From a virus, in IMG/VR virus record IMGVR_UViG_3300035688_000010, positions 1 through 48,318 of that record: a DNA stretch of 48,318 bases; one strand, 5' to 3'. Positions 1 through 48,318 of the stretch are shown piece by piece (the stretch's first letter is position 1; every line of letters starts with the position of its first letter). Below the pieces are notes generated by a model that searched no databases, had not been told where the DNA came from, and saw only the letters and a list, made by a program, of their open reading frames with translations. The position numbers were made by a program, and so were the translations under genes.

Positions 1-127
1 TGATGTTGGTTCCATTAAAAGAATTCCGAAGAAGTTGGGAAGAGCTGCCGCACAGACCCTATATAGAGCGATATTCGATATGATAGTGAATAACACTGTG
101 CAAATGTGGGATGGTAAAGTTCTATTC
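1..127. repeat. Terminal direct repeat, left copy
   Basis: These bases are identical to the last 127 bases of the window, and the capsid reading frame continues in phase across the join. The repeat therefore marks a circular or circularly permuted genome whose unit length is 48,191 bp. A length of exactly 127 is a common assembler k-mer size, so this is most likely an assembly overlap and not a biological terminal repeat. Confidence 0.95.
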
Positions 128-622
128 CATGTAGACCATGGCAACTTGGGTGACCAGGAACTCTCCGCTTCTTACCTCTCCGAAATCAAACAGTTGATGA
201 TGGATCAGGTTGCTTACGGAGATGCTTATGAAGTTCTTGGAATGACAAATATTCCAAAGTTCATTATGGCCCCTTCCGAGCTTGAAGAACTCTGTTTCAA
301 ACTTAAAACTTCAAAGACACTGATTGGTGCTACCAATGAAGCCGCAACCGAACCGAACATTCATGCGACACAGGGATTGGATTACATTATTCTTCCTTAC
401 TGGACAGATGCGAAAGATTTTGCGATAGTCGCCGACCCGAAAGCACAGCCGACAATTGAAGTTGGATTCCTTGATGGGAAAGAAGAACCAGAATTGTTCG
501 TTCAGGATATGCCGAATGTTGGCTCCGTGTTCACAGCTGACAAAATCACTTACAAGATAAGGCACATATTCGGAACAGCTCCTCTGGATTACAGGACGAT
601 GTTTAAATCAGTGGTTGCCTAG
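2..622 (+). CDS. Major capsid protein, C-terminal part (gene wraps from window end)
   Basis: This open frame has no start of its own. It continues in phase the reading frame that begins at 46375 and runs off the right end. Joined through the 127-bp overlap, the protein is 812 residues; this part supplies roughly the last 205. The style (FDMIVNNTVQMWDGKVLF, then a run of beta-strand sequence near APLDYRTMFKSVVA at the end) fits the C-terminal half of a Mu/HK97-like major capsid protein. The stop is TAG at 620-622. A 7-bp hairpin follows. The first genes of the exported-protein block start 66 bases downstream. Confidence 0.85.
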   Translation, partial: DVGSIKRIPKKLGRAAAQTLYRAIFDMIVNNTVQMWDGKVLFHVDHGNLGDQELSASYLSEIKQLMMDQVAYGDAYEVLGMTNIPKFIMAPSELEELCFKLKTSKTLIGATNEAATEPNIHATQGLDYIILPYWTDAKDFAIVADPKAQPTIEVGFLDGKEEPELFVQDMPNVGSVFTADKITYKIRHIFGTAPLDYRTMFKSVVA

Positions 623-1576: not shown

Positions 1577-2278
1577 ATGAAGAAAATATTATTAACAATC
1601 TTAATCTTAATAGGATTGAGCATTAATTTATTTGCTATCTGGCCTACGGATGAAGTAGTATCTGATATCTTTAGTCCCGATATTCATGCAGTATTTGTAA
1701 TCGCATTGCCTACTTGCACTTACGATGTTCACGGATCTACTATCTATATAACAGAATCTCAGTTGAATAATATACTTACAAGTATTGAAGCGAGTTCCAA
1801 GGCAATCACACAGGGATTAACAAATGTCAAATTTGAGATTCATGCTTCTTCGGAAGGAATAGTCATAGCCTTGACAAAAGTAAGCAGTGATATTATTGCA
1901 AGTTCAAATGCCGTTACTGAAAAATTAACAGGCATACAAGGTTCCCTTAATGCAGGTACAACCATATTTAATTCCAATCCACAGATGTTATATTCTGGGC
2001 AAACAATCTACAAGAGTTCCGGGACCGCAGGTTTACTTACCAGTGCAACTGGAGTCACAATTACTGTTGCAGATAAAGTGAAAGCATTTTATTTTTTATA
2101 TGAAAGTCCTTCGGGTGAGTATTGCAAAATAGAACCATCAACCTGGGGCGTTCCGATACGTCTTAGTGATGGTAAATATAGCAATATCCTAGTAGACTAT
2201 CCAGAAGCAATTACTTTCACTATATCTGATATGGTGGTAGGTTCCACTCTTACATGGGTGGTTCCTGTCGTAAAATAG
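1577..2278 (+). CDS. Exported protein with a coiled stalk and beta C-terminal domain
   Basis: 233 residues. The ATG at 1577 is chosen over one 30 bases upstream because an AAGGAGG SD lies 6 bases before it and translation then starts with a signal peptide (MKKILLTILILIGLSINLFA|IWP). Residues about 65-130 contain roughly 18-residue repeats of the type ASS-x-x-I-x-x-x-L-T-x-V, a trimeric coiled-stalk pattern as in fibres. The last 85 residues are beta-rich. Possible surface fibre or adhesin with a stalk and head domain. Not a recognised family. Confidence 0.75.
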   Translation: MKKILLTILILIGLSINLFAIWPTDEVVSDIFSPDIHAVFVIALPTCTYDVHGSTIYITESQLNNILTSIEASSKAITQGLTNVKFEIHASSEGIVIALTKVSSDIIASSNAVTEKLTGIQGSLNAGTTIFNSNPQMLYSGQTIYKSSGTAGLLTSATGVTITVADKVKAFYFLYESPSGEYCKIEPSTWGVPIRLSDGKYSNILVDYPEAITFTISDMVVGSTLTWVVPVVK

Positions 2279-2287
2279 GAGATAACC

Positions 2288-4141
2288 ATGAAAAAAATAT
2301 TATTTGGTTTGTCTATTGTATTACTTTATTCAAGTATGATTTATGCTCAATCTCAAGGCATTGGAACTTTAAGGGATAATACAAAAGTAACTACAACTGA
2401 ATTTAGGAATACAACTACTTATATACAGTCTCAGATTGATGATATAATTGACTCGACTTTGACTCCAAGAATACCCACAATACTTGTTTGCGGTAGCAAC
2501 AGCAACGCAGATATAAAAGCGGTAGCCCATTATGTTTGCGACGGAACAAATGACAGTTCGCAACTTCAATCGGCAATAAACAGCCTGACTTTCGGCAAGA
2601 TAAATATTGACGGAACATTGACCTTGAATTATCCTATTTACCTTACAAGCAAGAACGGAATAACTATTGAAGGATATGGCGAAAATTCTACCTTGAAAAT
2701 TAAAAATAGCGCATCCGGTTGGACTGCTTCAACAGATACGGTTACGGGATTATTTACTACAAACGGAAATTCAAATATCATAATAAGAAATTTAATACTT
2801 GACGGCAACAGTTCAAATCAGGGTGCAAGAACTTCAAAGGCAGTGTATAGTTCTGGTAGCGAAAGCGACTGGACAATAGATAACTGCATAATTCAGAATT
2901 TTAAAAATATGACACAAGCAGGCGGTATTTACATAGGGCAAAGCGACACGGCAGTAAACATAAAAATAATAAATAATAAATTTATTAATGTAGGAAACGC
3001 TGGTACAAACAGTTGTATTTCAATTATATATCAGGGAAGTAATAAAATTATTGTTAAGGATAATATGGCAACGACTTGCAAACTTTTTTGTGAATTGACA
3101 AAAACAAGTAATGTGGATATATCCCACAATATTTTAAGTGGTGGTGCAGGGTTTTCGGTATTAATAACAGTAAGCAGTTGTACCATAACAAATAATAATA
3201 TTAGCAACGAGTCAGGTATGACAGAAAGTCTTTACGTGTCTGGTAATGAAAACAGTATAGAAAATAATATTTTTAATAATAGTGCGTCTGGTAAGATAAT
3301 AAGAGTTGTAGGTTTACGCAATAGCATAATAGGAAATAAAATGTATAGTTTAACTGCTTGTGAATATGGAATATATGATAACGCAACTACTGGAGATATT
3401 ATTGCCCTCAATACTATTTATGATAATACTACCCCAAACGGCGACGGAATATATGTAAATTCGTCAAGCACAACAATAATGGGAAATAAATGCAATAACA
3501 ATAATAGATACGGCTTTAATATAACTGTTACAGCGGGGATAATTATAGGCAATGAAGCATTTAATAACGGGACTGCAAACGTAAGCATAACAAAATCGGG
3601 CAGGGTTGTAGATAACAATAACTCCTGGAACGCAGATAATTTATTTAACGACGGAAGTAATGCTATGACGGGTGCTTTGGATATGGGAAATAACTCAATA
3701 AACTACTGCCCTGAAATAATTAAGTCAACAACGCAGGCGGAAGTAGTTATCAGTTCAAGCCCGAAGTGGAGTAAGACAGCTCAAGACGTATCGGCGGTGG
3801 CATTATCTACCGCAGGAATTCAATTTGAAATCGGAATTGACAGCGTGCCTGCAGTAAATGATTTTTGCGGGATTTCAACTCTATTTAACTGGAATTTAAA
3901 AAGTCTTTATGGGTTTTTAGATACACCCGCAACTGGTTCTGCTTTTATTGTCGATTGCTATATTTCAAATTCCGCAAATGTTGTGGCGACAATAAATATC
4001 CCTGTTGGTTGTTCTTCAAGCACGGTAGTAAATATTTCCTCGCAAGTGCCTTCGGGATATTGGTTTAAGGCGAGAGTAAAACAGATAGGAAGTACTATTG
4101 CAGGTAGTGATTTTAGAATAAACGGGGAATATACAAAATGA
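2288..4141 (+). CDS. Exported right-handed beta-helix (pectate-lyase-like) protein
   Basis: 617 residues with SD AGGAGAT. The signal peptide is about 20 residues, ending MIYAQ. Residues about 70-130 (CDGTNDSSQLQSAI, then IEGYGENSTLKI) match the entry cap of pectate-lyase-like tailspikes. Residues about 155-440 are some a dozen coils of the N-x-I-x-x-N type (IKIINNKFINVGNAG, VDISHNILSGG, CTITNNNIS, NSIENNIF, IIIGNEAFNNG). The segment LFNDGSNAMTGALDMGNNSI resembles fibre proteins, and a beta-sandwich of about 130 residues closes the protein. It may bind or cleave surface polysaccharide. The signal peptide sets it apart from ordinary tailspikes, which fold in the cytoplasm. Confidence 0.85.
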   Translation: MKKILFGLSIVLLYSSMIYAQSQGIGTLRDNTKVTTTEFRNTTTYIQSQIDDIIDSTLTPRIPTILVCGSNSNADIKAVAHYVCDGTNDSSQLQSAINSLTFGKINIDGTLTLNYPIYLTSKNGITIEGYGENSTLKIKNSASGWTASTDTVTGLFTTNGNSNIIIRNLILDGNSSNQGARTSKAVYSSGSESDWTIDNCIIQNFKNMTQAGGIYIGQSDTAVNIKIINNKFINVGNAGTNSCISIIYQGSNKIIVKDNMATTCKLFCELTKTSNVDISHNILSGGAGFSVLITVSSCTITNNNISNESGMTESLYVSGNENSIENNIFNNSASGKIIRVVGLRNSIIGNKMYSLTACEYGIYDNATTGDIIALNTIYDNTTPNGDGIYVNSSSTTIMGNKCNNNNRYGFNITVTAGIIIGNEAFNNGTANVSITKSGRVVDNNNSWNADNLFNDGSNAMTGALDMGNNSINYCPEIIKSTTQAEVVISSSPKWSKTAQDVSAVALSTAGIQFEIGIDSVPAVNDFCGISTLFNWNLKSLYGFLDTPATGSAFIVDCYISNSANVVATINIPVGCSSSTVVNISSQVPSGYWFKARVKQIGSTIAGSDFRINGEYTK

Positions 4142-34470: not shown

Positions 34471-34648
34471 GTATAAAGAACCAATATTAGATTCGGAAGG
34501 AAGAGTGCTTCCTGGGGTATGTCCTGATTGCCTTGGAAAGAAAAAGATAATCCAAAGATTCAAAACATTTGCGAATCTGAAATACAAAAATGTTCCTTGC
34601 AGGAGATGCGGTGGGAGTGGAACTGTAAAAATTATAGGTAAGAAATAA
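34463..34648 (+). CDS. DnaJ-type zinc finger protein (61 aa)
   Basis: ATG at 34463, since upstream in-frame ATGs lie within the previous gene. CPDCLGKKK and CRRCGGSGTV form two CxxC(x)G units as in DnaJ zinc domains. Its stop overlaps the terminase ATG (TAATG), so the pair is coupled. May be a packaging cofactor. Confidence 0.65.
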   Translation: MNEYKEPILDSEGRVLPGVCPDCLGKKKIIQRFKTFANLKYKNVPCRRCGGSGTVKIIGKK

Positions 34649-36450
34649 TGTTAGTAAAAACAAAATCATTCAGACAACCTAAAGTAGAATATGCCAGAAC
34701 TCATGACATGGATAAACTTGCTTTTGTCTTGAAGATAAAGAAAGCGGTTGAGAATGGTGGGCGTGGTATAGTATCCGAACTGGCCCGGGAACATGGAATA
34801 ACAAGGCAGACAATTTACAACATGGTGCGTTCTCCGGTTGATGTTAATTCTATCCAAGAGAAAGTAAAGAAGATAGTTAAAGCGACAGGAGATAATTACA
34901 AACAGGCATTATATAATATAAGAGCCATCCGCAGAACCGAGAATCCAATTGACTTCATAGAATCAGAAGACCTCTTGAATTTTAAATTATTCCCAATGCA
35001 GAGATTGATAATAAAATGTTTCTATGGGATGCCTTTGGATGGCGGCGAGATGCAGATGATTAAGAAGTTAGAAAAAGAAGGACGGACTACTTACAAGGGG
35101 CCAAAGAAATATAGAGAGCTGGTTGTGAATGCAGGAATGAAATCCGGGAAGACACCTACTGCAGGAGTGATATCCTGTCTTGAAGAATATAATTGTTATT
35201 TGAAAGGCGACCTTGCCAAGCATTATGGATTCCCACCCGGGAAAGAAGTATATATCCTGAATGTTGCCGTGAATGGCGACCAGGCAAAGGAAACTATATT
35301 TGCAGAGATAAAGGCAAGAGTGAAGAACTCTCCGTATTATGCTTTGAGAAAACCTACAAATGAGACAGATACAAAATTCGTATTTGATAACAATGTTATC
35401 ATTCGTTCTGGACATTCAAATTCATCTTCTCTTGTAGGGCCAATCAATAAATTAGTTTGCTTTGATGAGTTGGCGAGGTTCACGGATCAGGGCGGCAAGT
35501 ATTCTGCGGATAGAGTCTATTATGCTCTTATTCGTTCTGTTGAACCATTCCAGGAAGATGGCAGAATAATAGATATCTCATCTCCATTATTCGATGGGGA
35601 TATTATATGTGACTTATATCACAAGTCAAAAGACATAGATAATATGTTGGGATTTCATATTCCAACTTGGGACTTCAATCCTAATCTTCCGTTCAAATCA
35701 GAACGTATGCAGAATGAGTTAAAGAAAAATCCAGAGGCATTCTGGAGAGACTTTGGTGCTCAACCTTCCATGTCTCAAGAATCATATTACAGAGACCCGG
35801 AGAGATTAGAGAAACTATTCGCTTCTTCTAAAAGAGAAAATCCAATTGATTCATCTGGTAAACTAAAATCTTGGTTCAAAGGAAAACCTGGAATGGCTTA
35901 CTATCTCCATGCCGACCCTTCAGTTAAGAACGATGCCTATGGCTTGTCCCTTGGACATCTTGATGGCAAGAGGACTATAATTGATTTAGCACATAGATTC
36001 ATTCCGGTGAAAGGCGGGGAGATAGATATCCGTGAAATAGAATTTTTTATCATGGACTTAATTCAGAGGGGATTTTCTATCAAACTATTTTCTTATGATA
36101 CATGGCAGGCAACTGGAATTGCTCAGTGTTTGAATCGGGCAGGTATAAAATCAGAGAATAGATTTATATTAAAAGATGAACACGATTATTTGAAAGAGTT
36201 GATTTATACTGAGAATATTGATATATATATGAGCGAGGTATTACTGAAAGAGTTAAAGGGGCTTGATTTGTTAGCAGGTAAAAGAGTTGACCATAAGAGA
36301 GGCGGTTCAAAAGATATAGCCGATGCAGTGGCAGGAGTGGCAATCTCCTGCAGGAGCAATCCGAGTGTGGAAGTAGGCATGGCCTCGTATGACCCTAAGG
36401 CATCCGACTTTACACCGGAACATAGAAATTCATTCTGGAGAGGACTATGA
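34648..36450 (+). CDS. terL: Terminase large subunit with N-terminal HTH
   Basis: 600 residues. Residues about 40-62 (GIVSELAREHGITRQTIYNM) are a helix-turn-helix usually found in small terminase subunits. ATPase: Walker A AGMKSGKT (162-169) and Walker B LVCFDELARF (Asp273, Glu274). Nuclease: YLHADPSVKNDAYGLSLGH (Asp423), SYDTWQATGI and DIADAVAG near 571. It cuts and packages DNA through the portal encoded next. The HTH may give sequence recognition. It overlaps the portal gene by ATGA. Confidence 0.9.
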   Translation: MLVKTKSFRQPKVEYARTHDMDKLAFVLKIKKAVENGGRGIVSELAREHGITRQTIYNMVRSPVDVNSIQEKVKKIVKATGDNYKQALYNIRAIRRTENPIDFIESEDLLNFKLFPMQRLIIKCFYGMPLDGGEMQMIKKLEKEGRTTYKGPKKYRELVVNAGMKSGKTPTAGVISCLEEYNCYLKGDLAKHYGFPPGKEVYILNVAVNGDQAKETIFAEIKARVKNSPYYALRKPTNETDTKFVFDNNVIIRSGHSNSSSLVGPINKLVCFDELARFTDQGGKYSADRVYYALIRSVEPFQEDGRIIDISSPLFDGDIICDLYHKSKDIDNMLGFHIPTWDFNPNLPFKSERMQNELKKNPEAFWRDFGAQPSMSQESYYRDPERLEKLFASSKRENPIDSSGKLKSWFKGKPGMAYYLHADPSVKNDAYGLSLGHLDGKRTIIDLAHRFIPVKGGEIDIREIEFFIMDLIQRGFSIKLFSYDTWQATGIAQCLNRAGIKSENRFILKDEHDYLKELIYTENIDIYMSEVLLKELKGLDLLAGKRVDHKRGGSKDIADAVAGVAISCRSNPSVEVGMASYDPKASDFTPEHRNSFWRGL

Positions 36451-38933
36451 AAATAACAGAAAGATTATTAGAAGGAATTGCAGGTGGTTTGATTGACAGG
36501 AAAGTTGGAGAGAAAGTAGATAAATTAAAAGAGGCACTTATTATTCCGCAGGATGGGATTGATAAAGATGAACATCTCTGGAGATTACTTACCAAAAATA
36601 AAAACAGAAATTTAGACCCGCTCACCCAAGACAGAATGATTGAGATTGCAGTCTGGTTGAATACGATGAATGGTTTCGCTCATCGTATACTTGAGATGAA
36701 CAAGGATTTTGTTATTGGCGATGGAATTCGTTATGAAGCCAAGGATTCTACAGTTAGAGAAATTCTTGATGAGCATTGGTATGATTCAGTTAATAACTGG
36801 TCTTTAAAACAATTCAATCGTGTAATGGAACTTGGATTATACGGAGAACAATTATATCCAGTGTTTGTGAATGAATATAATGGATTCGTAAGACTTGGAG
36901 TTATAGACCCTTCGCAGATTTCAAAGATAACAGTTAATCCAGAAAATGCAGAAGAGATGAAAACGATTGAACTTAAAACAAGTGCCGAGAATTCTGACAA
37001 ACCAAAAACATACAAAGTTATTGCTTTAGACATGGACCCGAAGTCAGAACAGTATGGATATAGAACAGGAGAAGCATTCTTCTTTGCAGTAAATAAATTA
37101 TCAACTGCTACCCGAGGAATTTCTGATTTACTTTCTATTGCAGATTGGATAGATGGTTATGAAAGATTTTTATTCAATCGACTTGACCGTTCACATTTAT
37201 TAAATCAGTTTATATGGGATATACTTCTTGAAGGTTATAACCCTGAACAGATAAAAGAATGGATGAAAGAATTTCAGATGCCTAAGCCAGGTTCTGTCCG
37301 TGCCCATAATGAAAAAGTAAAATGGGATGTTGTATCTCCCAAGTTAGAATCAGCAGATGCCTCGGAAGAAGCCAAGATGTTTAAATCCCATATTCTTGGA
37401 CAAGCAGGATTTCCACCGCATTACTTCGCGGAAGGAGAAGGTATTACTCGGGCTTGTTATTCAGAGGACACACAAACTCTAACCGAAAATGGCTGGAAGT
37501 TTCATTGGGAAATTGAAGAGAGAGAAAAAATAGCAACATACAATCCCAGAAAGGATTCTTTAGAATATCATATTCCAGTGAAAAAATATGTTTATGATTA
37601 CGAAGGAGAAATGTATCACTTTAAGAATCTTAGAACAGATATTCTAGTTTCCCCTGAACATAAGATGTATTTAAGAGAATCGCATAAAAAAGATTTTTGG
37701 ATTAAAGTTATGGCTAAAGATATATTTTATCATTCTTTTTATTTCAAAGAATCCCCATTATACTTCAATGGAAAGAATCAAGAATATTTTGAACTTCCAT
37801 TTAAACCCTATGATATACAATCCAGAAAAAAAGATTTCAAAAGAATTATACCAATGATTAATTGGTTGCCGTTCCTTGGTATTTTTATTTCCGAAGGATA
37901 TTTAAGAAAATCAAAAAATAGATACATCGTAAGAATAGCACAGAAAAAATATGTAGATGAATTTAGAAAATTAATTGCTTGTTTGGGTTTCGAATTCAGA
38001 GAAGATAATAACGGGAGGGGAGTAACAGTTTTTGAAATTGCCAATAAATCTCTTTATTTATATCTTTCAGAATTTATTGGTGAGAATAGTCATGAAAAGA
38101 GAATTCCAAAAGAATTTATGAATCTTAGTCAGGATTATCTTAATATTTTATTTCATAGTATGATAATGGGAGATGGAACTTTTCATGTTGGAAAAGGTGA
38201 AAACTATCTTACATATTATACTTCTTCAGAAAAACTTAGTGGTCAAATGCAAGAACTTTGTTTAAAACTTGGATACTCTTCAAGATGTTCTGAATCAAAG
38301 AAAGGAAAGTTTTCTTGGAAAACAATTTCTATAACTCCGATTAGAGAAAGAAACTTGAGAAAAAATAAAGATGTCTTCAAGGAAAAGTATAATGGAAAAA
38401 TTTATTGTTTTGATGTTCCAAATCATTTATTCATTACAAGAAGAAATGGAAAAATAGGAATACATTCTAACACCGCCATGGAAATGGGAACTCCGGTATT
38501 CAAGAGATTGAAAGCAAGACAGACTTATGTGAAATATATGGTTACGGAAATATTTGCTTTTGTAATTGACCAGGCAATTATTCATGGCAGACTGAAACCT
38601 GATGTAGATAGAAGTTTCAGTTTATTCTTTCCTAAACTCGCAGAAAAAGACTTCTCGGGTCTATCCACTGCAATATCGAATCTATCTAATGCATTAGTGG
38701 TTGGAGAAGACCAACAGTGGATTACAAAGGATTGGGCTAAGAAAGCATATCTATTTATTCTATCTCAATTTGGATTTGATATGCAAATAGAAGAAGGGCC
38801 TGTTAAAAATGATATGTCCGAATCCACTTATGAGTTCAAAGAATATCTCCAAGCGAAAGTTAAAGAGGCAAGAATGAAACTTAAAAAGTCTTGTAAACAA
38901 AATTCAGAAGAGATTGAAAAAAAGGAAGAATAA
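36447..38933 (+). CDS. Portal protein interrupted by an in-frame intein
   Basis: 828 residues as translated; 489 after removal of the intein (residues 337-675). N-terminal part 1-336 has portal features: WLNTMNGFAHRILEMNKDFVIGD, VIDPSQISKI, and the conserved ...HYFAEGEGITRA just before the intein; the C-extein resumes TAMEMGTPVFKRLKARQ with the helical crown region after it. Forms the dodecameric DNA gate of the head. The insertion site is a conserved portal segment, as is usual for inteins. Confidence 0.85.
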   Translation: MKITERLLEGIAGGLIDRKVGEKVDKLKEALIIPQDGIDKDEHLWRLLTKNKNRNLDPLTQDRMIEIAVWLNTMNGFAHRILEMNKDFVIGDGIRYEAKDSTVREILDEHWYDSVNNWSLKQFNRVMELGLYGEQLYPVFVNEYNGFVRLGVIDPSQISKITVNPENAEEMKTIELKTSAENSDKPKTYKVIALDMDPKSEQYGYRTGEAFFFAVNKLSTATRGISDLLSIADWIDGYERFLFNRLDRSHLLNQFIWDILLEGYNPEQIKEWMKEFQMPKPGSVRAHNEKVKWDVVSPKLESADASEEAKMFKSHILGQAGFPPHYFAEGEGITRACYSEDTQTLTENGWKFHWEIEEREKIATYNPRKDSLEYHIPVKKYVYDYEGEMYHFKNLRTDILVSPEHKMYLRESHKKDFWIKVMAKDIFYHSFYFKESPLYFNGKNQEYFELPFKPYDIQSRKKDFKRIIPMINWLPFLGIFISEGYLRKSKNRYIVRIAQKKYVDEFRKLIACLGFEFREDNNGRGVTVFEIANKSLYLYLSEFIGENSHEKRIPKEFMNLSQDYLNILFHSMIMGDGTFHVGKGENYLTYYTSSEKLSGQMQELCLKLGYSSRCSESKKGKFSWKTISITPIRERNLRKNKDVFKEKYNGKIYCFDVPNHLFITRRNGKIGIHSNTAMEMGTPVFKRLKARQTYVKYMVTEIFAFVIDQAIIHGRLKPDVDRSFSLFFPKLAEKDFSGLSTAISNLSNALVVGEDQQWITKDWAKKAYLFILSQFGFDMQIEEGPVKNDMSESTYEFKEYLQAKVKEARMKLKKSCKQNSEEIEKKEE
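37455..38471 (+). mobile_element. LAGLIDADG intein in portal (339 aa)
   Basis: Begins at Cys337 (CYSEDTQTLTENGWK, splicing block A) and ends GKIGIHSN followed by Thr676. Block B: LVSPEHKMYL. Two LAGLIDADG motifs: LGIFISEGYL and LFHSMIMGDGTF. Block F: YCFDVPNHLFI. The penultimate residue is Ser (HSN instead of the usual HN), with His one place earlier, so C-terminal cleavage may differ from canonical. Both endonuclease motifs keep their acidic residue (Glu, Asp), suggesting an active homing enzyme. Confidence 0.88.
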
Positions 38934-38943
38934 TAAAATTCAA

Positions 38944-39771
38944 ATGTTAAATGAGATTAGGTTTTTATCTTTATTTGCAGGAATTGGCGGTTTTGATTTA
39001 GGACTTGAAAGAGCAGGAATGAAATGTGTTGGGCAGGTTGAGAATAATAAATTTTGTTTAAAAATATTAGAAAAGCACTGGCAAAAAGTAAAACGAATTA
39101 AGGAGATTAAAAATGTCAATGGCAATGAGTTCGGAACAGTTGACCTTATTTGTGGCGGATTCCCTTGCCAACCTTTCAGTGTTACCGGGAAGCAAGAAGG
39201 CAAAACGGATGACCGCTATCTCTGGCCAGAAATGTTTAGGGTTATTAAAGCAGTCAAACCCACTTGGGTTGTTGGCGAAAATGTTTTTGGAATCATTGGA
39301 CTGGCACTCGACGATGTGTTATCTGATTTGGAAGGCGAAGGCTACGAAGTTAAGACATTTATTATTCCAGCTTGTGCCGTCGGTGCGTGGCATAGAAGGG
39401 ACAGAGTATGGATTATTGCCTACTCCACAGACAATGGACGCAATCGGTATGACCAGGGAAGTATTCAGGCGCGGGAAATCTTACAGAATAAAATCCAATC
39501 AGGGAGTAGAAGGGCAGGCAGGATTGAGGGATGTGGCAATGATGTATCCGTCGCCCTCGGCGACGGATTACAAAGGTTCGGGGAGACACGGGAAACCGAG
39601 AGACCGGCTGGATTACGCAGTGGAAAGGGGTGTGACGAAAAGCAGACTGTATCCAACACCAAGACTGAGAGATTCAGAAGGCGGAATATGTCAAGGAATT
39701 GCGGGAACGAGTCAGAGAATAAGCAAGGCAGGAATGAAACTTTCAAATATGGTGGGGTTCTGGGAATCTGA
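38944..39771 (+). CDS. dcm-like: DNA cytosine-5 methyltransferase (motifs I-VIII)
   Basis: 275 residues. Motif I FAGIGGFDLGLERAG, motif IV FPCQPFS with catalytic Cys, VVGENVFGI (motif VI, ENV), motif VIII GAWHRRDRVWIIAY. The TRD region follows (VALGDGLQRFGETRE; VSNTKTERFRRRN), then the frame stops at GGVLGI without motifs IX/X. Those motifs (KALGNAVVPQ) lie in the +1 frame, in the gene at 39113. A TTG start 10 codons earlier is possible. Complete activity would need a frameshift or the partner protein. Confidence 0.8.
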   Translation: MLNEIRFLSLFAGIGGFDLGLERAGMKCVGQVENNKFCLKILEKHWQKVKRIKEIKNVNGNEFGTVDLICGGFPCQPFSVTGKQEGKTDDRYLWPEMFRVIKAVKPTWVVGENVFGIIGLALDDVLSDLEGEGYEVKTFIIPACAVGAWHRRDRVWIIAYSTDNGRNRYDQGSIQAREILQNKIQSGSRRAGRIEGCGNDVSVALGDGLQRFGETRETERPAGLRSGKGCDEKQTVSNTKTERFRRRNMSRNCGNESENKQGRNETFKYGGVLGI

Positions 39772-39919
39772 ACCCGGAGTGGGTATGTTGGATCATGGGG
39801 TTCCCGAAAGGGTGGCTAAGTTGAAAGCTCTCGGAAACGCAGTAGTTCCGCAAGTCGTTGAAATAATTGGAAGGTATATAATGCAATTTGAAAAGGAAAA
39901 AAATGCCGATAACAAATGA
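39113..39919 (+). CDS. Overlapping +1-frame protein with MTase C-terminal motif
   Basis: 268 residues in the +1 frame, overlapping the methyltransferase by 659 bases, with its own SD (AAGGAG, 7 bases from the ATG). N-terminal SVLPGSKKAKRMTAISGQK and YLIWKAKATKLRHLLFQLVP, then GLLPTPQTMDA and YPSPSATDYKGSGRHGKPR belong, from memory, to a family widespread in phages beside cytosine methyltransferases. The C terminus FWESEPGVG...GVPERVAKLKALGNAVVPQ is methyltransferase motif IX/X. It may be a partner subunit or the C-terminal half. Both frames look protein-coding. Confidence 0.75.
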   Translation: MSMAMSSEQLTLFVADSLANLSVLPGSKKAKRMTAISGQKCLGLLKQSNPLGLLAKMFLESLDWHSTMCYLIWKAKATKLRHLLFQLVPSVRGIEGTEYGLLPTPQTMDAIGMTREVFRRGKSYRIKSNQGVEGQAGLRDVAMMYPSPSATDYKGSGRHGKPRDRLDYAVERGVTKSRLYPTPRLRDSEGGICQGIAGTSQRISKAGMKLSNMVGFWESEPGVGMLDHGVPERVAKLKALGNAVVPQVVEIIGRYIMQFEKEKNADNK

Positions 39920-40208: not shown

Positions 40209-40227
40209 ATGCCGATAACGAATGAAG
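40209..40227 (+). repeat. Direct repeat of the head-gene start, copy 2
   Basis: Matches 39903-39921 with one mismatch and forms the start of the head morphogenesis gene. See copy 1. Confidence 0.65.
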
Positions 40228-41045
40228 TAAGAAAAAAAATCGCTGATAAAATTAAAGAGATAACCAAACAAGGATTTGATTTGAATGATGAAGCCGCAAA
40301 ATCCTTTGTAGATTATATCGGCAAGATTCGAGATGACATAACCAAGAGAATAACTTCCGCAGAAGGTATAGATGCTATTCATCTCAAAGGCATAAAAAAA
40401 GATATAGAAGATATCCTGAATGAATTCAAAACCAAAGGCACTGAATCCCTGCAGAAGTTCCAGGACACCGGATACCAATTGGGTTCGGACTTGGTTACTG
40501 ACCCTCTCAAGTCTGCAGGCGTGAAGGTCGCTATTCCTGGCATATCCAAAGAACAATTAATCATTATGCAGAATATGTCCACAGACCTAATTTCAGGGGC
40601 TTCTGAAGAGGCTAAGGTTAAGATTAAGTCCGCTTTAAACCAAGCATTGCTCGGGGAGTTGACTCCCACCGAGGCCGCCCTGAAGGTGGATTCCGCCTTG
40701 GCAGGTCTTCAAGACAGAGGAGAGGCCATAGTGAGGACAGAGGTGGGCCGGGCATTCTCCATTGCCACCCAGATGCGGCAGGAACAGTATCAGAAAGCTC
40801 TTCCAAGTCTTAAAAAACAATGGTTGACCAGTATTGATGGCCGAGAAAGACCTTCTCATGCGGCCATTAATGGACAGATTAAAAATATAGATGAACCATT
40901 TGAAGTTCCTAACTACCGGACTGGAGGAACAGAAGAAGCAATGTATCCGCATGATCCAAATCTAAGTCCTGAAAATTCTGTAAATTGTCGTTGTGTAATT
41001 TTACCCATAACAGATGAATGGGCTTCTCAGGAGGAAACAGTATGA
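40209..41045 (+). CDS. Mu F-like head morphogenesis protein
   Basis: 278 residues. Helical N-terminal two thirds, then the Mu F/SPP1 gp7 signature: VRTEVGRAFSIATQMRQEQY, WLTSIDGRERPSHAAINGQ and SPENSVNCRCVILPI at the C terminus. Such minor head proteins act next to the portal in procapsid assembly or are injected. SD weak (TTTTGGGAGTTCAAGA). Confidence 0.85.
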   Translation: MPITNEVRKKIADKIKEITKQGFDLNDEAAKSFVDYIGKIRDDITKRITSAEGIDAIHLKGIKKDIEDILNEFKTKGTESLQKFQDTGYQLGSDLVTDPLKSAGVKVAIPGISKEQLIIMQNMSTDLISGASEEAKVKIKSALNQALLGELTPTEAALKVDSALAGLQDRGEAIVRTEVGRAFSIATQMRQEQYQKALPSLKKQWLTSIDGRERPSHAAINGQIKNIDEPFEVPNYRTGGTEEAMYPHDPNLSPENSVNCRCVILPITDEWASQEETV

Positions 41046-41455
41046 AAAAGAAAATCAAGAAAGCAAGCAAAAAAAAACAGAAGGGAGGAAAGAAAATGTT
41101 TGGATTAGGAAAAGAAAAAGAAAAGAAACCAGAAGTGAAACCCGAGGTCATTGGCAGTTCAAATGATTCTCCAAATAAGGTATCTCCCGAAGAACCAAAA
41201 GAAACCATTCCAGAAACCGATGCAACTATTCCAGAAACTGGCGATATACCAGAGCCAGAAAAAACACAGGAGGCAGAAGACATGACACTTACAAGCAAGA
41301 AAGAACCGGAAAAGAAGAAAGAAGTATTGAAGATTGATGGCAAAGAAGTCCGTTCCGTTTACGAGTTCAAAACCTACATTGTTTATGATTTTGTAGGTGG
41401 CGGCAGAAAGAAAGTCATGAAGAAAGATATCAAAAAAGATGAAGAAGGAAAATGA
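41042..41455 (+). CDS. Charged, disordered head-module protein
   Basis: 137 residues. ATG at 41042 follows CAGGAGGAAACAG. A second in-frame start at 41096 also has a strong SD (AAGGGAGG, 7 bases upstream) and would skip the Lys-rich first 18 residues, so two forms are possible. Contains a long acidic Pro/Glu region (SPEEPKETIPETDATIPETG), then a short folded-looking part (VLKIDGKEVRSVYEFKTYIV) and a basic end. Could be a scaffold or a linker. ATGA overlap with the large gene that follows. Confidence 0.65.
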   Translation: MKKKIKKASKKKQKGGKKMFGLGKEKEKKPEVKPEVIGSSNDSPNKVSPEEPKETIPETDATIPETGDIPEPEKTQEAEDMTLTSKKEPEKKKEVLKIDGKEVRSVYEFKTYIVYDFVGGGRKKVMKKDIKKDEEGK

Positions 41456-44400
41456 ATTCTGAATTTTTGATTGATTTATTTTGTCAAGACTTAACAGAGG
41501 GTTTAAGACCAGCCTTCGGTTCTCCGGGTGGTAAGAGATTATTGGCTTCAACAATAGTATCTTACTTCCCGGAGCATAAGGTTTATGTAGAACCATTTGT
41601 AGGTGCAGATGCTGTATTCTTTAAAAAGAAACCTTCGCAAGAAGAAATTTTGAATGATAAAGATTCCGAAATTGCTTTTGCTTATAAATTCATAAAACAG
41701 ATGACAGAATCGGATGTCAAAAATTTACAAAAATTTAAATGTAAATTTGATAGAGATTATTTTTACAAACTTGTAGATTCAAAACCAGATAATGAAATAG
41801 GAAGATTTCATCGTTTTATTTATCTCAATGCTTTTTCCTTTGGTAAATCAATGAACAGCACAGTCAAGAATGCTGGAGGTATTGGCATAAAAGATATATC
41901 TCCCAGATGGCCAAGATTTTTAGAACTCAAAGATAGATTTAAAAATGTTAAAATATACAATAAAGATTGGAAAGATATTGCAAAAGAATATGATGACAAA
42001 AATACTCTATTCTATTTTGACCCGCCATATTTTACTCAGCAAGGACATCTTAAGACAGATATAACACCCGAGGTAATTAATGATTTTCTAAAAAAACTCA
42101 AGGGCAAGTTTCTATTAAGTTTTGCAGGCGAACAAAACGAGAGAAAATATTTTCCTACTTTTAGTTGTAAAAATTTAAAAGTCAAAAGATTTTTAAATCA
42201 GAAGACTTCTAAGATACATGAGGATAACGAGATACTGCTTTCTAATTTTGGATGGTCAAAAAATAAAGAATGGTTGGCGGAAGAAGTATTTCAGGAATTT
42301 CATAAAGAGAATTATAATCCCGTCAAAGATACCGATGCACAGTTGCGGGATAATTGGCGTTTGATATTAGCAAAGTATCATGATGAATTTACTGAAGAAA
42401 GAAAAACAGAATTCAAAGATATTGATGAAGTCATAAAATATGCAAGAATGATTTTAGATGAATTATTAAAACGAGGTTCTTCCGTTGCTACCTTCCACCC
42501 AGATAATATGACAGAATATTCTTTGAGTTTATTAACATCTCTTTTGAAAGAAAAAATAAAACAAAGATTATTTATTGCTAATCCAGAAGCAATTAAGAGA
42601 GGAAGTTCTGAATATATTATGCCTAAACAATATATTCTTGGACAATTTCAAATATTGAATGATGGCAAACAATCTTATGGATTTATTAGACTTGGAATTC
42701 CTCTTGAAGATAATAATAAAATGTATGTGTATCCAATTACTGATTTCATTCCATTTGAAAAACCAATAAATGATGTTGCACCTAAGGGCACTCAAACTTT
42801 CTGGTCTGGGACAATCCTCCATGAAAATACTCAGGAATTCATGCCAGAGCGTTATCAACCTCAAGAACTCCAAAAATTAAATGACTTGGAGCTTATCCAG
42901 AGACACGCCGAGATTGTCAGGATTTGGAAAGAACGAGGTGCCCGGGCCAATGATGAAATGGCGATTAACTCCCATGCCTTTGTAGCCGATGAATTGAAAA
43001 GGCGAGGTTTGGAACATCGCTATAATGAAGATATAGATAAACTTTCAACTGCGGACTTCCCTGTAAAATCAGTGGATGGGAAGTATACTCTTGAAGATGC
43101 ATTAAAATTCTTCAATACGGATTTTTATCTCAAGGATCCATTCCTGGCTCTAACAGGTGGAACAGTGGTTTCTGGCGAAGGTCATGATTGGGATATCTGG
43201 GTTAACTGGAATAATCCTCGGGTAAATCATAGTTGTCCTTATTGTGAGAGATTCCTTCAGCAATTAAGATTCAGATTGCAGTCTCAACTTCCCGAGGAAC
43301 TGCAATCACTCATTCATCTGGTTCCAGAAACGGAAGGCAAGTTTACAAACTACACTCCACTGGCCCGAATGAAAGTTGAATTTATGAAACCAGAAGAGAG
43401 AACATTAATGAGAATGTCTTTGAAAGAACAGGCAAGAGCCGCTTCTAAAGAAGTAAATGCAGAAGCAGAATTATCTTTGAAAGAAGATAAGTTAAAACTA
43501 TTCAGATTTTTCTATGGAATGAAACCCACTCGTTCCGCAGTTCCAAACGAAAGAATGACAAAGGAATTCTTTTTGAGTTTATTTGATGTTGCAGACTTTC
43601 CAGTTTTTTCCAGTAAAAAATTTGATGGAATGCGATGTATAATTTTTGTGGATAATGAAAAAAATAAAATAGAAATATGGAGTGAGGATGGAGAAAATAT
43701 AACTGATAGAATTCCAAATATCGTTAATGCCTTAAGTAAAGCAAAATTAAGTAATGCTATATTTGATGCTGAATTAGAAAAATGGAAAGATGGAAAACAC
43801 TATCCACGAGAAGCAGTTGCAGGTTATATTCACTCCATCGGAGAGCCAGATGATTCAGATATAGTTATGAATATATTCACGGTTCCATTCTATAATGGTA
43901 TTGACTTTCACAATAAAACTGAAAGTGATAGGCAAGAAGTATTATCTGAGACTAACTTTCCTGATTCCCAATCTACCTGGGAAGTTCCTGATACAAAAAT
44001 AAAAATCAATATAGTTCCGAATACAATATCAAATAATATTCAGGAACTTTCAAAGGCATTAGATTTTGTTTCTGACAAACCTGCTTCAGAAGGAATAGTT
44101 GCTAAGAAAGCAAACTCCAAATATTATCTGGATGTTAATTCAAAAGAGGGATGGATTAAGTATCATAAGAATGTTTTATTCTATCCTATAATAATTGAAA
44201 GAGTAAAAACTAAAGTTCCAACTATTTTCAATTATAGATATGGAGTTGATATTGGAGATATGGGGACAGGGAATGAACCTCTGATAGAAATAGATGGCAG
44301 AAAGATAATTGAAGTTGGTTTGACTTTCAATACTGCAGAGAAATTAGAACGAGGAGATATGATTGCAGTTGAAGCCGAGACTATAAATTTAACTGATGAT

Positions 44401-46266
44401 AATGAGAATAATAAAATATTAATTTCTGCTTGGGTTCCAAGATTTATTCCTCTGGATAAAACTTTAGAAAAAGTTCCGAGTGAACCTGATACTTTAAAAT
44501 CTCTTATTCAGAAAGCGGCATTCTCTGAAGTATTGCAACGAAAGACAATTAACAAAGATGGCATAACATTATATGAATCTGAATTCTCCCTGGAAGATAT
44601 GCAACCAAATGAGAGTTTTCATATAGATTATTCTTTCCTTTCAGATGATGATTTCTTTGAAATAAAAGAAACAGAAATTCCAATTCTTAAAGAAGCAAAA
44701 ATGCCACTTGAATCTTATCCCAAGAATTATGGGGTATTTGTTAATCATTTCAGAGGAAAATCCGTTCATCTGGATTTCAGAAGAAGACAGAACGGATTCT
44801 TGCAAGGCGAGACTCTGATGAACGAACCCGCAGGATTGATTACGGAACCAGTAGATACAATCGAGGAAGGCAAGAAGTGGAATGAGGTTCTTCTTAAGAA
44901 AGGTAAATTCAGACCGGACATGGACCCGAATCAGAAGGTAGTTATGGTAGATAAGGCTCAACAGCCTCTCGAATGGTTGAATGCCAGAGAGGTAATATTT
45001 GAACCCGGGCAGGTTGGGGCCACTAAAGAGAATTATGGGGTTCTAATTACCTTCGATGAAGGCATGGTCTATCCGGGAGTCCAGAAAGCATACTTCCGGG
45101 AGTTCTTCTTGGATATGAAAAATTTCAAAGGACGGATGGTTGAACGGGCCATCGGGGTTGGTAAGGAGTGGGAGAAGCCACCTGCAGGACAGACTGTTCA
45201 ATGGCAAGCATGGACTAATATGGTTGAGCAGACTCCTTATCTTTTAACTTCCCGAGGTAGAGAAAAACACGAGGATGTTCCACCCGAAGGAGTCTCCTGG
45301 TTGCCTCCCGAATGGGAAGCGAAGGTTCCACCTGATATGCGTTGGTGGAAGCCAGGACTATCTAATGAACAAAAATTAGCACTTATGGATAAAGCATATA
45401 ACTCTTTAATTGCGAGTGGAGAACTCAAAGATAAACCAATAAAAGAAGAAGAAGTTATTATCCAAGAGAAAAAAGCAAAATTTATCTTAAGATGGCATTG
45501 GTGGAAGGGCCAAGAAGTTATTCGTAATATGCCCGCAGTTGCCTCTCATTGGGATTTGGTAATAGATACCGGGAAGGATTATCTTGATGAATGGAATATC
45601 TGGCAGGATCCATTGATAACTGAAAAGGCAACTGCAGACAGAAAGGTTTGTAATCTTAAATCCCCGATGGGAGATTCAATTCATGGTTGGCTAACTTTCG
45701 AGGGGAGTATACCTGCTATTGATTCTAAAGTTGAAGAAGTAGAAGTGATTAAAAAAATCGAAGAAGTAGAAGTGATTAGAGAAATACAAAATGGAATATA
45801 TTCTGTAAAGAAAAAGAATGGAGATATAATTGAAACCAAAGAAACTTATGCAAAGTTCAAACCTGAACAGATTGCATATTTAGACCAATATAAAAATTTA
45901 TTTACCGGAAAATTAGGTGGTGCCGCTTACGGAAATCCAAATCAAAGAATTCCTGCATATATGCAAATATTGGATTCTGGTAATGTTGAATGGTTAGAAG
46001 ACAATGCTAACTTTGCTTCTTTCAAATTCAATGGTAAAATACTTGATGGATATTGTATTATGAAAAGAGAATCTCCGCAATCTACTATTTGGACATTCTC
46101 AAAAAGTGAATTACCAGTAAAAGAAGAGATATCTGTAGAACAAGAAAACAGAACCATAAAAGTATCCAACCTAACTAAACCAGTAGATGTCAATTTCAAT
46201 GGCAGGGAATATGTCCTGATACCCACCTCGTCGGGAAAATTAAGGCTTGATATTAAGAATAAATAA
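41452..46266 (+). CDS. Multidomain DNA methyltransferase-nucleotidyltransferase-ligase protein
   Basis: 1604 residues in one frame. About 20-270: D12-class adenine methyltransferase (GSPGGKRLLA; YVEPFVGADAVFF; FYFDPPYF with DPPY at 190-193). About 545-640: nucleotidyltransferase-like (GGTVVSGEGHDWDIWV, Asp579/Asp581), with a CPYC pair. About 690-1000: ATP-dependent DNA ligase, KFDG with Lys723 nucleophile, IFDAELE (770-776), SEGIVAKK (879-886) and WIKYHK (901-906). About 1090-1240 and 1340-1420: segments like LigD 3'-phosphoesterase (SVHLDFRRRQNGFLQGETL; ASHWDLVID). A further 150 residues follow. Lies between a head protein and capsid protease, which suggests a virion or capsid-linked role. 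Cleavage into pieces is possible. Confidence 0.85.
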   Translation: MNSEFLIDLFCQDLTEGLRPAFGSPGGKRLLASTIVSYFPEHKVYVEPFVGADAVFFKKKPSQEEILNDKDSEIAFAYKFIKQMTESDVKNLQKFKCKFDRDYFYKLVDSKPDNEIGRFHRFIYLNAFSFGKSMNSTVKNAGGIGIKDISPRWPRFLELKDRFKNVKIYNKDWKDIAKEYDDKNTLFYFDPPYFTQQGHLKTDITPEVINDFLKKLKGKFLLSFAGEQNERKYFPTFSCKNLKVKRFLNQKTSKIHEDNEILLSNFGWSKNKEWLAEEVFQEFHKENYNPVKDTDAQLRDNWRLILAKYHDEFTEERKTEFKDIDEVIKYARMILDELLKRGSSVATFHPDNMTEYSLSLLTSLLKEKIKQRLFIANPEAIKRGSSEYIMPKQYILGQFQILNDGKQSYGFIRLGIPLEDNNKMYVYPITDFIPFEKPINDVAPKGTQTFWSGTILHENTQEFMPERYQPQELQKLNDLELIQRHAEIVRIWKERGARANDEMAINSHAFVADELKRRGLEHRYNEDIDKLSTADFPVKSVDGKYTLEDALKFFNTDFYLKDPFLALTGGTVVSGEGHDWDIWVNWNNPRVNHSCPYCERFLQQLRFRLQSQLPEELQSLIHLVPETEGKFTNYTPLARMKVEFMKPEERTLMRMSLKEQARAASKEVNAEAELSLKEDKLKLFRFFYGMKPTRSAVPNERMTKEFFLSLFDVADFPVFSSKKFDGMRCIIFVDNEKNKIEIWSEDGENITDRIPNIVNALSKAKLSNAIFDAELEKWKDGKHYPREAVAGYIHSIGEPDDSDIVMNIFTVPFYNGIDFHNKTESDRQEVLSETNFPDSQSTWEVPDTKIKINIVPNTISNNIQELSKALDFVSDKPASEGIVAKKANSKYYLDVNSKEGWIKYHKNVLFYPIIIERVKTKVPTIFNYRYGVDIGDMGTGNEPLIEIDGRKIIEVGLTFNTAEKLERGDMIAVEAETINLTDDNENNKILISAWVPRFIPLDKTLEKVPSEPDTLKSLIQKAAFSEVLQRKTINKDGITLYESEFSLEDMQPNESFHIDYSFLSDDDFFEIKETEIPILKEAKMPLESYPKNYGVFVNHFRGKSVHLDFRRRQNGFLQGETLMNEPAGLITEPVDTIEEGKKWNEVLLKKGKFRPDMDPNQKVVMVDKAQQPLEWLNAREVIFEPGQVGATKENYGVLITFDEGMVYPGVQKAYFREFFLDMKNFKGRMVERAIGVGKEWEKPPAGQTVQWQAWTNMVEQTPYLLTSRGREKHEDVPPEGVSWLPPEWEAKVPPDMRWWKPGLSNEQKLALMDKAYNSLIASGELKDKPIKEEEVIIQEKKAKFILRWHWWKGQEVIRNMPAVASHWDLVIDTGKDYLDEWNIWQDPLITEKATADRKVCNLKSPMGDSIHGWLTFEGSIPAIDSKVEEVEVIKKIEEVEVIREIQNGIYSVKKKNGDIIETKETYAKFKPEQIAYLDQYKNLFTGKLGGAAYGNPNQRIPAYMQILDSGNVEWLEDNANFASFKFNGKILDGYCIMKRESPQSTIWTFSKSELPVKEEISVEQENRTIKVSNLTKPVDVNFNGREYVLIPTSSGKLRLDIKNK

Positions 46267-46282
46267 ATTTTAACCTACCCCC

Positions 46283-46312
46283 TTGACAAACAATTAAATC
46301 TCTGGTATAAAT
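46283..46312 (+). promoter_or_regulatory. Strong sigma70 promoter before protease-capsid gene
   Basis: TTGACA (46283-46288, perfect), 17-base spacer and TATAAAT (46306-46312), with TGG before the -10 (TG-n extended -10, 46303-46305). The best promoter in the window; it would drive late capsid expression. Confidence 0.75.
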
Positions 46313-46318
46313 ATACCA
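46303..46318. promoter_or_regulatory. Palindrome over the -10 box, possible operator
   Basis: TGGTATA-AA-TATACCA is a perfect inverted repeat (7 + 2 + 7) covering the whole -10 element and start region of the promoter. A dimeric repressor or activator could bind and block transcription. No repressor gene was identified. Confidence 0.45.
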
Positions 46319-46336
46319 TAAAGTTGAGTGAAATGT

Positions 46337-46363
46337 AACCGACTTCAAGGAGTCGGTTTTTTT
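46337..46363 (+). terminator. Rho-independent terminator/attenuator in the capsid leader
   Basis: AACCGACT (46337-46344) pairs with AGTCGGTT (46351-46358), loop TCAAGG, followed by seven T. It stops transcripts of the large gene and also lies about 20 bases downstream of the predicted start of the promoter at 46283, so that promoter's transcripts must pass it. The loop exposes AAGGAG, 22 bases from the next ATG. Confidence 0.75.
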
Positions 46364-46374
46364 ATTCACAAATT

Positions 46375-48318
46375 ATGGAACCAGAAATACTCAAAGAAGA
46401 AATCCAAATTCTCGAATCGAAAGACACGGAAGGAAAAGAATGGGATGTATGTCTTATCGAAGCGGGCTTATCTAAGAACGGGAAACTCTATCCTAAAGAA
46501 GTTCTACAAAATTCAGTTAATCTATTTGACGGAGTCAAAGCATTCTGTTTTGAATTAGGGCGGAATATGTTCAATCATCTTCCAATCAAAGTTCAAGAGA
46601 TGATTCCTCAAGGATTAGTTAAGAACATTGTCGGGTGGTATGAGAAACCAAGATTCGACTCATTCAGGGATTCGGAAGGAAATCTGAAATGGGGAGTCCT
46701 GGCAAAACTTCATATATCCGAGAATGCGAAATGGCTCTCTCAGTTATTGAAAGATGCATGGGAGCATGGAAAGAAATCTTTACTCGGGTTATCCATTGAT
46801 GGAGCAGGGATAACCGTGAAAGAAGATTATCAAGGCAGGATGATAGATAGAGTCACGGATTTACTCAAGATTAATTCTGTGGACATTGTTACTCAGCCAT
46901 CAGCAGGAGGACAATTAATAAGGCTTCTTGCGAGTATGAATCCACCGGAGGAAGTAAAAATGAACTGGAAAGATTTATTAGATTTTGTTTCAAAGCATGA
47001 TGCAAAGTTGATTGAAGGGATTGACCCGGAGAACATCATGCAGGAACAGGCAATAACTCTTCTGAATAAAGTTGTAGAAATTCAGGAAGATGAAAAACAA
47101 TTCGAGGAAGCACTTGGTTTCTATTCTGCAATGATAGACCAGGTCATTGACTTGATTGACAATGACAAGAATGCAGAAGCCATGAAAGTCCTGGAATTAT
47201 TGAAGGCAAAATTGGATAAATATGGTTACGCATATCCAGTTGCTGGTCAGGCCGTTGGTAAGTATGAATATCCGGTTGCTCAAAAGTATGGATATCCCTA
47301 TGCAGAAGAAAGTTACAATCCGCCAGCGGGATATGGTAAATATGGATATATGCAGAAGAAGAAAGTCAAAAAAGCAAAGGAAGAAGTAATAACTCAGGAG
47401 GAAACTAAGATGACACCAGAAGAATTAAAAAGACTCGAGGAAGCAGAAGGCAAGTTGAAGAAGTTGGATGAGATTGACAATTCCTTGAAGATTAAGGAAT
47501 CCGAAGTCTCACTGAAAGAATCACTCATTGACAGCAAACTGCCCGTTCCCGTGAGAGACCACATGATGAAAGAATATAAGGGTCGCATCATGAGCAAAGA
47601 GGAAATTGACGGAGCAATTAAAAGCCAGAAAGACCTGTTGGCCGCAGTTCTTCAGGAAACAAGTAAGGTGCAGGGATGTGGTAAGGTTGAAATAACCTTA
47701 GACGAGAAAGACAAACTTCAGAAAGCGATGGATGGATTCTTCTTTGACAAAGACATCGACAATGTTCCTCGTTTCAAATCCTTCAGAGAAGCGTTCCGTA
47801 AAGTCACCGGACTTCACGAAGCATCTGCAGTTGAGATGTTATCTGAATCCGTTGGTTTCGTTCCTAAGGAATATCAGCACATGAAGATTACAGAATCACT
47901 GCAGACTTCCAGTTGGGGCCAGATACTTGGCGATTCCGTAACACGCAGAATGGTGGCGGAATTTACTCTTCCTGAATTGCAGTCATGGAGGAAAATAGTT
48001 TCTGAAATTATTCCAGTTTCGGATTTCAGAACCCAACGCAGAATGTTATTGGGCGGATATGGTGTGTTACCTACAGTTTCAGAAACAGGAAGTTACCAGG
48101 CCCTTTCATCTCCGACTGATGATGAGATGACTTATGCAGTGGGAAAGAAAGGTGGAACGGAAGACTTGACAATGGAAATGATTAAAAATGATGATGTTGG
48201 TTCCATTAAAAGAATTCCGAAGAAGTTGGGAAGAGCTGCCGCACAGACCCTATATAGAGCGATATTCGATATGATAGTGAATAACACTGTGCAAATGTGG
48301 GATGGTAAAGTTCTATTC
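46375..48318 (+). CDS. Prohead protease-scaffold-major capsid fusion (5' part)
   Basis: 648 residues here, continuing at position 128 to give 812. Residues 1-190: prohead protease (FNHLP with His68, LLGLSIDG with Ser140, INSVDIVTQPSAGG). 196-345: charged helical scaffold/delta-like part with a Tyr-Gly-Pro-rich stretch (DKYGYAYPVAGQAVGKYEYP). 346-812: capsid domain (KRIPKKLGRAAAQTLYRAIF). The gene lacks a good SD at Met1 but has strong internal SDs before Met196 (GGAGG, ATG 46960) and Met346 (AGGAGG, ATG 47410), so shorter scaffold-capsid and capsid products may be made. No stop interrupts the frame in this window. Confidence 0.85.
   Translation, partial: MEPEILKEEIQILESKDTEGKEWDVCLIEAGLSKNGKLYPKEVLQNSVNLFDGVKAFCFELGRNMFNHLPIKVQEMIPQGLVKNIVGWYEKPRFDSFRDSEGNLKWGVLAKLHISENAKWLSQLLKDAWEHGKKSLLGLSIDGAGITVKEDYQGRMIDRVTDLLKINSVDIVTQPSAGGQLIRLLASMNPPEEVKMNWKDLLDFVSKHDAKLIEGIDPENIMQEQAITLLNKVVEIQEDEKQFEEALGFYSAMIDQVIDLIDNDKNAEAMKVLELLKAKLDKYGYAYPVAGQAVGKYEYPVAQKYGYPYAEESYNPPAGYGKYGYMQKKKVKKAKEEVITQEETKMTPEELKRLEEAEGKLKKLDEIDNSLKIKESEVSLKESLIDSKLPVPVRDHMMKEYKGRIMSKEEIDGAIKSQKDLLAAVLQETSKVQGCGKVEITLDEKDKLQKAMDGFFFDKDIDNVPRFKSFREAFRKVTGLHEASAVEMLSESVGFVPKEYQHMKITESLQTSSWGQILGDSVTRRMVAEFTLPELQSWRKIVSEIIPVSDFRTQRRMLLGGYGVLPTVSETGSYQALSSPTDDEMTYAVGKKGGTEDLTMEMIKNDDVGSIKRIPKKLGRAAAQTLYRAIFDMIVNNTVQMWDGKVLF
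48192..48318. repeat. Terminal direct repeat, right copy
   Basis: Identical to bases 1-127. The capsid frame runs through it in phase, confirming that the ends join. Confidence 0.95.

Follow-up and report, generated by a model that had tools for sequence, protein, structure and literature searches.

Bacterial LigD carries phosphoesterase, ligase and polymerase domains in the order PE-LIG-POL, the polymerase being of the AEP type, and acts in non-homologous end joining with Ku as its partner. Mycobacteriophages Omega and Corndog, in the account of Pitcher et al. 2006 as cited in PMC7719229, express Ku and use the LigD of the host. A different precedent is set by the polyvalent proteins of phages and conjugative elements, exemplified by DarB and DdrB of phage P1: these are multidomain proteins packaged in the head, encoded with portal and terminase genes, and processed mainly by zincin metallopeptidases (Iyer et al. 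2017, PMC5512222). The text of that paper mentions neither DNA ligase nor LigD-type phosphoesterase. Phages also encode an RNA-repair set consisting of RNA ligase, the nucleotidyltransferase RlaP and a 2H phosphoesterase (PMC7824862). No paper joining DNA ligase, phosphoesterase, nucleotidyltransferase, portal and head protease was found in the openly licensed literature, a restriction that makes this a weak absence.

A long gene within a head module

The window analyzed here is a whole virus record, 48,318 nucleotides in length. An exact repeat of 127 bp is found at both of its ends (1-127 and 48192-48318); the record is therefore a circular or terminally redundant map, giving a circle of 48,191 bp in which the capsid gene spans the ends. 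This gene, a fusion of protease and major capsid protein (46375-48318; PF25209, phrog_15531), resumes at window positions 1-622 because the contig is circular. The terminase, portal, Mu F-like, 145-residue, large and capsid genes described here all lie on the plus strand. The terminase large subunit (34648-36450; phrog_17415 and phrog_9) is followed by the portal protein (36447-38933; phrog_10963), whose gene holds an in-frame intein that carries a LAGLIDADG endonuclease domain (Pfam LAGLIDADG_3 and Intein_splicing). A separate second DNA methyltransferase gene (39113-39919; phrog_1008) sits inside the head module, in the interval between the portal gene and that for a Mu F-like (MuF) head protein (40209-41045; PF04233, E 1.6e-14). 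Neither tRNAs nor Rfam families were detected in the window.

The gene of interest (41452-46266) is open from its ATG at 41452 to a stop at 46266 and encodes 1604 residues, the single uninterrupted frame that the preliminary description had reported. A 145-residue gene (41018-41455), with a homologue only in the relative L002, joins it to the MuF gene through consecutive overlapping frames: the small gene starts within the end of the MuF gene, and its stop overlaps the ATG of the large gene (ATGA), with AAGGA just 5' of that start. The large gene had been described as lying between the Mu F-like protein and the protease-capsid fusion, which names both neighbors correctly but omits the 145-residue gene. 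A frameshift, the doubt raised beforehand, and an assembly artifact are both rejected as sources of the frame, as the same single-frame fusion is kept in several relatives recovered from other metagenomes; the same parts form two adjacent genes in a few relatives. In the gap that separates the large gene from the capsid gene (window 46283-46358) lies an exact promoter-like sequence, TTGACA-N17-TATAAA, and about 25 bp past it a hairpin resembling a terminator, with a run of T (46337-46358), which immediately precedes the capsid ATG. The arrangement could possibly constitute an attenuator or produce a short leader RNA, and it gives a hint of a bacterial host.

Domains of the 1604-residue protein

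Residues 1-275 (41452-42276, plus strand, as for all domains below) form a D12-class adenine-N6 DNA methyltransferase domain (PF02086, E 3.6e-19). The Pfam MethyltransfD12 match covers residues 25-202 with 69.9 bits against a cut-off of 22, and the translation contains the D12 motifs VEPFVGADAVFF and FDPPYF, the DPPY falling within FYFDPPYF. D12 domains are present in three relatives: that of L002 keeps the same position, whereas those of L005 and L006 have moved to a place flanked by other domains, which makes two different positions for D12 in all. In L019 (2-3445), the ligase is preceded in its own frame by the C-terminal part of a C5-cytosine methylase; cytosine and adenine methylases have thus both been joined to the ligase family. 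The methylases are optional additions in this family.

The next region, residues 285-545 (42304-43086), comprises the N-terminal region of the core and a helical segment; close relatives conserve it, distant ones do so in part, and its structure model is of low confidence. Residues 546-690 (43087-43521) show the GG/GS..DxD pattern of Pol-beta type nucleotidyltransferases, seen here as GGT..DWDI at residues 569-582, with the two aspartates of the DxD, D579 and D581, kept in 29-30 of 31 family members. Pfam returned weak matches to NTP_transf_2 and DNA_pol_B_palm (E about 0.003, each in one relative), the fold was modelled with low confidence, and a PDB profile search with the domain gave only an irrelevant match (E 1.2). 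We regard this region as a putative nucleotidyltransferase-like domain for which the motifs are strong and the fold is unproven.

Residues 691-1030 (43522-44541) contain the nucleotidyltransferase core of an ATP-dependent DNA ligase together with an OB domain (PF01068, E 4.8e-16). The Pfam match to DNA_ligase_A_M, at residues 717-904, scores 59.5 bits against a cut-off of 26.2; a family profile matches an archaeal DNA ligase at E 2.2e-23; and Foldseek, given a model with pLDDT mostly above 90, finds DNA ligases at E 1.7e-17 in alignments of about 380-410 columns that include the OB domain. The only match to RNA_ligase came from one relative, at E 0.0035. Ligase motifs are found as KFDG (723-726), SEGIVAKK (879-886) and WIKYHK (901-906). 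K723, the lysine that is adenylated, and D725 and G726 of motif I (KxDG) occur in 32 of 32 family members, and conservation is similarly high in motifs III, IV and V (E774, 32/32; E880, 31/31; K885, 29/31; K903, 33/33). At the second lysine position of motif V, the window and roughly half of the family have histidine, the alternative being lysine; the motif I arginine (KxDGxR), R728 in the window, is arginine in only 16 of 32 members. Profile matches, fold matches and invariant residues lead us to reject chance occurrence of the motifs, and by both sequence and modelled fold the protein is judged to contain an ATP-dependent DNA ligase.

Beyond the ligase, residues 1086-1250 (44707-45201) match the 3'-phosphoesterase of LigD in the model, in Foldseek, and by profile to PDB entries 3p43 (E 7.7e-7) and 3p4h. 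The residues of the metal and phosphate site, H1099, H1106, D1108 and R1110, the last three within H-L-D-F-R, are kept in 29-30 of 31-32 family members. A conserved segment, TPY.LS.R (MID; 45199-45471), present in most family members, separates this domain from a second phosphoesterase-like barrel at residues 1340-1551, approximately (45469-46104), where profile positions 411-458 match 3p43 and the model shows a second beta-barrel whose N-terminal half is degenerate. Foldseek searches with the phosphoesterase barrels gave seven matches below E 0.001, all of them LigD phosphoesterases (including 3n9b, 3p43, 3p4h and 5dmp, from Pseudomonas and archaea). For the phosphoesterase region of the relative L032, phmmer against PDB returned nothing relevant, and the Pfam LigD_N match falls under its cut-off (E 3.9e-4). 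Sequence and predicted fold agree in assigning the first domain to the LigD type. A further residue of LigD 3'-phosphoesterases is His84 of PaeLigD; the position aligned to it by eye is mostly Gln or Glu in the family. Given this substitution and the variable arginine of motif I, activity or substrate may differ.

These results bear out the domains first proposed from the translation, with one qualification. The D12 methyltransferase, the complete ATP-dependent ligase with its KxDG, EGIVAK and WIKYHK motifs, and the two LigD phosphoesterase-like segments were all recovered, the ligase and phosphoesterase segments with significant structural matches; for the nucleotidyltransferase-like domain the motifs proved to be conserved, while its fold found weak matches only.

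Co-occurrence with head genes

Scans by protein similarity identified 33 related loci, 28 in viral records (counting the archaeal virus ANMV-1) and five in bacterial or archaeal genome assemblies from Omnitrophota, Elusimicrobia, Methanosarcinales and Methanophagales. L030, an ordinary ligase of 425 residues with 79 matched residues, was excluded. Genomic context played no part in the search, and neighboring genes were classified afterwards, so that linkage to head genes counts as independent evidence. Each of the 34 loci, counting the window, has the gene no more than about four genes from one for capsid, terminase, portal, MuF or head protease, or fused to a head protease. The location in a capsid module noted for the window therefore extends to the whole set, and single-frame fusions beside head genes were found in relatives. 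Terminase, portal and capsid genes next to family members belong to several different PHROG families, from which it follows that the linkage has been maintained across distinct virus groups; assemblies of Omnitrophota, Elusimicrobia and methanotrophic archaea are among the records. For seven of the 29 virus records, an XkdF head-maturation protease forms the C-terminus of the same frame.

Other parts of the architecture vary. A 2H phosphoesterase is present in L011, L016 and L018. The gene of L009 is split in two between the OB and phosphoesterase domains, the halves overlapping as ATGA, while L016 (5013-7493 and 8993-12898), L024, L027 and L034 distribute the nucleotidyltransferase or 2H, ligase and phosphoesterase parts over two genes, a layout that we read from the sequences as repeated gene fission or fusion. 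A tree of the ligase and OB region places XkdF fusions and D12 fusions in separate parts and members from archaeal viruses on another branch. Comparison with L002 gives dN/dS of 0.03-0.39, and every module is under purifying selection; the methylase and the ligase core are more divergent from L002 than adjoining modules are, which suggests module exchange. A search for Ku (PF02735), made in the records of 29 relatives, found none.

Possible roles and comparison with known systems

An active-looking ligase accompanied by end-healing domains, production together with portal and MuF proteins, and union with a head protease in some lineages lead us to propose a polyvalent head protein centered on a ligase. 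Such a protein would travel inside the particle and reach the new cell together with the DNA, which it would heal, seal and in some cases methylate. We rate this proposal at slightly better than even. Conserved active sites, linkage to the head module, fusion to the protease, recurring 2H and methylase partners and the precedent of proteins like P1 DarB all support it. Participation in head assembly is itself supported by gene position in 34 of 34 loci and by the seven XkdF fusions; packaging, injection and cutting by the prohead protease are steps that we infer, as are the targets of the reactions and the order in which they would run. The conserved core, NT-ligase-OB-phosphoesterase with active sites apparently intact, plus an optional methylase, would be produced alongside portal and MuF as heads assemble and enclosed in the prohead, where the head protease, in some relatives the protein's own C-terminal protease, would probably trim it. 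The protein would exit the particle together with the DNA. Once in a new cell, the phosphoesterase would clear 3' ends that are blocked, and where a nucleotide is missing the nucleotidyltransferase may supply it; the ligase would seal breaks or nicks and help circularize the genome, and the D12 methylase would mark the DNA against restriction. The site of action is most likely the viral DNA at entry, possibly during packaging.

A place in the operon of terminase and portal, with overlapping frames, would also suit a late enzyme, one that repairs nicks, gaps and blocked ends of concatemers at the portal or terminase before or during packaging and has no need of injection, and the set of repair domains is appropriate to nick and gap repair. 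We consider this rather unlikely, since the head-maturation protease fused in seven records acts inside proheads and since methylases recur, both of which suggest a role in the particle or at entry. The protein is the sole PF01068 ligase in the window, and so it could also serve replication here; that it is an ordinary replication enzyme, near head genes by chance in this genome, is nevertheless very improbable given the position kept in 34 of 34 loci, the fused head protease, and the virus of L024, which has a separate ligase, a 659-residue frame about 41 kb away, so that its head-module ligase is not simply a replication ligase.

Two further readings concern what the domains do. Nucleotidyltransferase, ligase and 2H phosphoesterase make up a known phage RNA-repair set (PMC7824862), and the 2H domains of three relatives would fit a counter-defense that mends RNA, tRNA included, after cleavage by host toxins early in infection. 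This is improbable in view of a ligase core and OB domain whose matches, in profile as in fold, are to DNA ligases (the RNA_ligase match being confined to one relative), a phosphoesterase of LigD type, and methylases that act on DNA. That the protein is structural, reusing dead enzyme folds in the head, draws on the degenerate second phosphoesterase, but we give it the least credence of all, as the active-site residues of the ligase, the nucleotidyltransferase-like domain and the first phosphoesterase are conserved and purifying selection is evident.

Returning to the ligase-centered polyvalent protein, the occurrence of its relatives at the same place in many unrelated bacterial and archaeal viruses suggests that particles may carry a kit for mending and sealing DNA. 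A more specific proposal, of a virus-encoded end-joining machine carried in the particle of bacterial and archaeal tailed viruses, put together independently of LigD and without Ku, entering with the genome, and healing, sealing and marking the DNA before viral gene expression, is one we advance tentatively and hold to be less than even. Should particles carry a ligase with end-cleaning enzymes, some tailed viruses would repair and circularize their genomes with their own enzymes rather than those of the host, which would explain in a new way how linear viral DNA withstands entry. The set of enzymes likely to be injected would then gain a DNA ligase and a LigD-type phosphoesterase, and the family, widespread and testable, would connect processing by head proteases with DNA repair.

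With polyvalent proteins the 1604-residue protein shares a long single polypeptide, disparate enzymatic domains including a DNA adenine methylase (methylase, ligase and phosphoesterase here, protease and 2H in relatives), and genes encoded alongside portal and terminase; proteolytic processing would be expected as well. It differs in that processing would be performed by a fused XkdF serine protease or a neighboring head protease, and in that archaeal viruses are included. It resembles phage RNA-repair sets in combining a ligase with a putative nucleotidyltransferase of Pol-beta type, to which some of its relatives add a 2H partner, and differs from them in its DNA-ligase type of core, its LigD phosphoesterase and its head-module location.

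A described homologue is ANMV-1 AJP62006 (KP703175), annotated only as "ATP-dependent DNA ligase", which aligns over residues 546-1308 with 27% identity (E 5e-44). Like the window gene it lies in a head setting, with a portal gene on one side and a gene for a MuF-ended protein on the other; unlike it, the protein has 866 residues, no methylase, and Met in place of the phosphoesterase arginine. The ANMV-1 gene at 1913-3193, annotated "MutT-like phage hydrolase", encodes a portal protein (PF06381, E 3.2e-22).

Genome end joining through a LigD-type pathway, as proposed for the window protein, would parallel what is cited for Omega and Corndog, except that those phages pair a host ligase with viral Ku, whereas here the ligase is virus-encoded and the relatives' records show no Ku. 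Shared with bacterial LigD are an ATP-dependent ligase without a large N-terminal DNA-binding domain, a 3'-phosphoesterase and a domain that probably adds nucleotides; the differences are the order NT-LIG-OB-PE-PE, a domain with Pol-beta-like motifs in place of an AEP polymerase, the lack of Ku in the records of the relatives, and a place in a viral head module. Membership in LigD was rejected: Pfam searches to E 1 gave no AEP-type polymerase domain, and the Ku search of the 29 records was negative. The protein would work like LigD, yet it is not a LigD.
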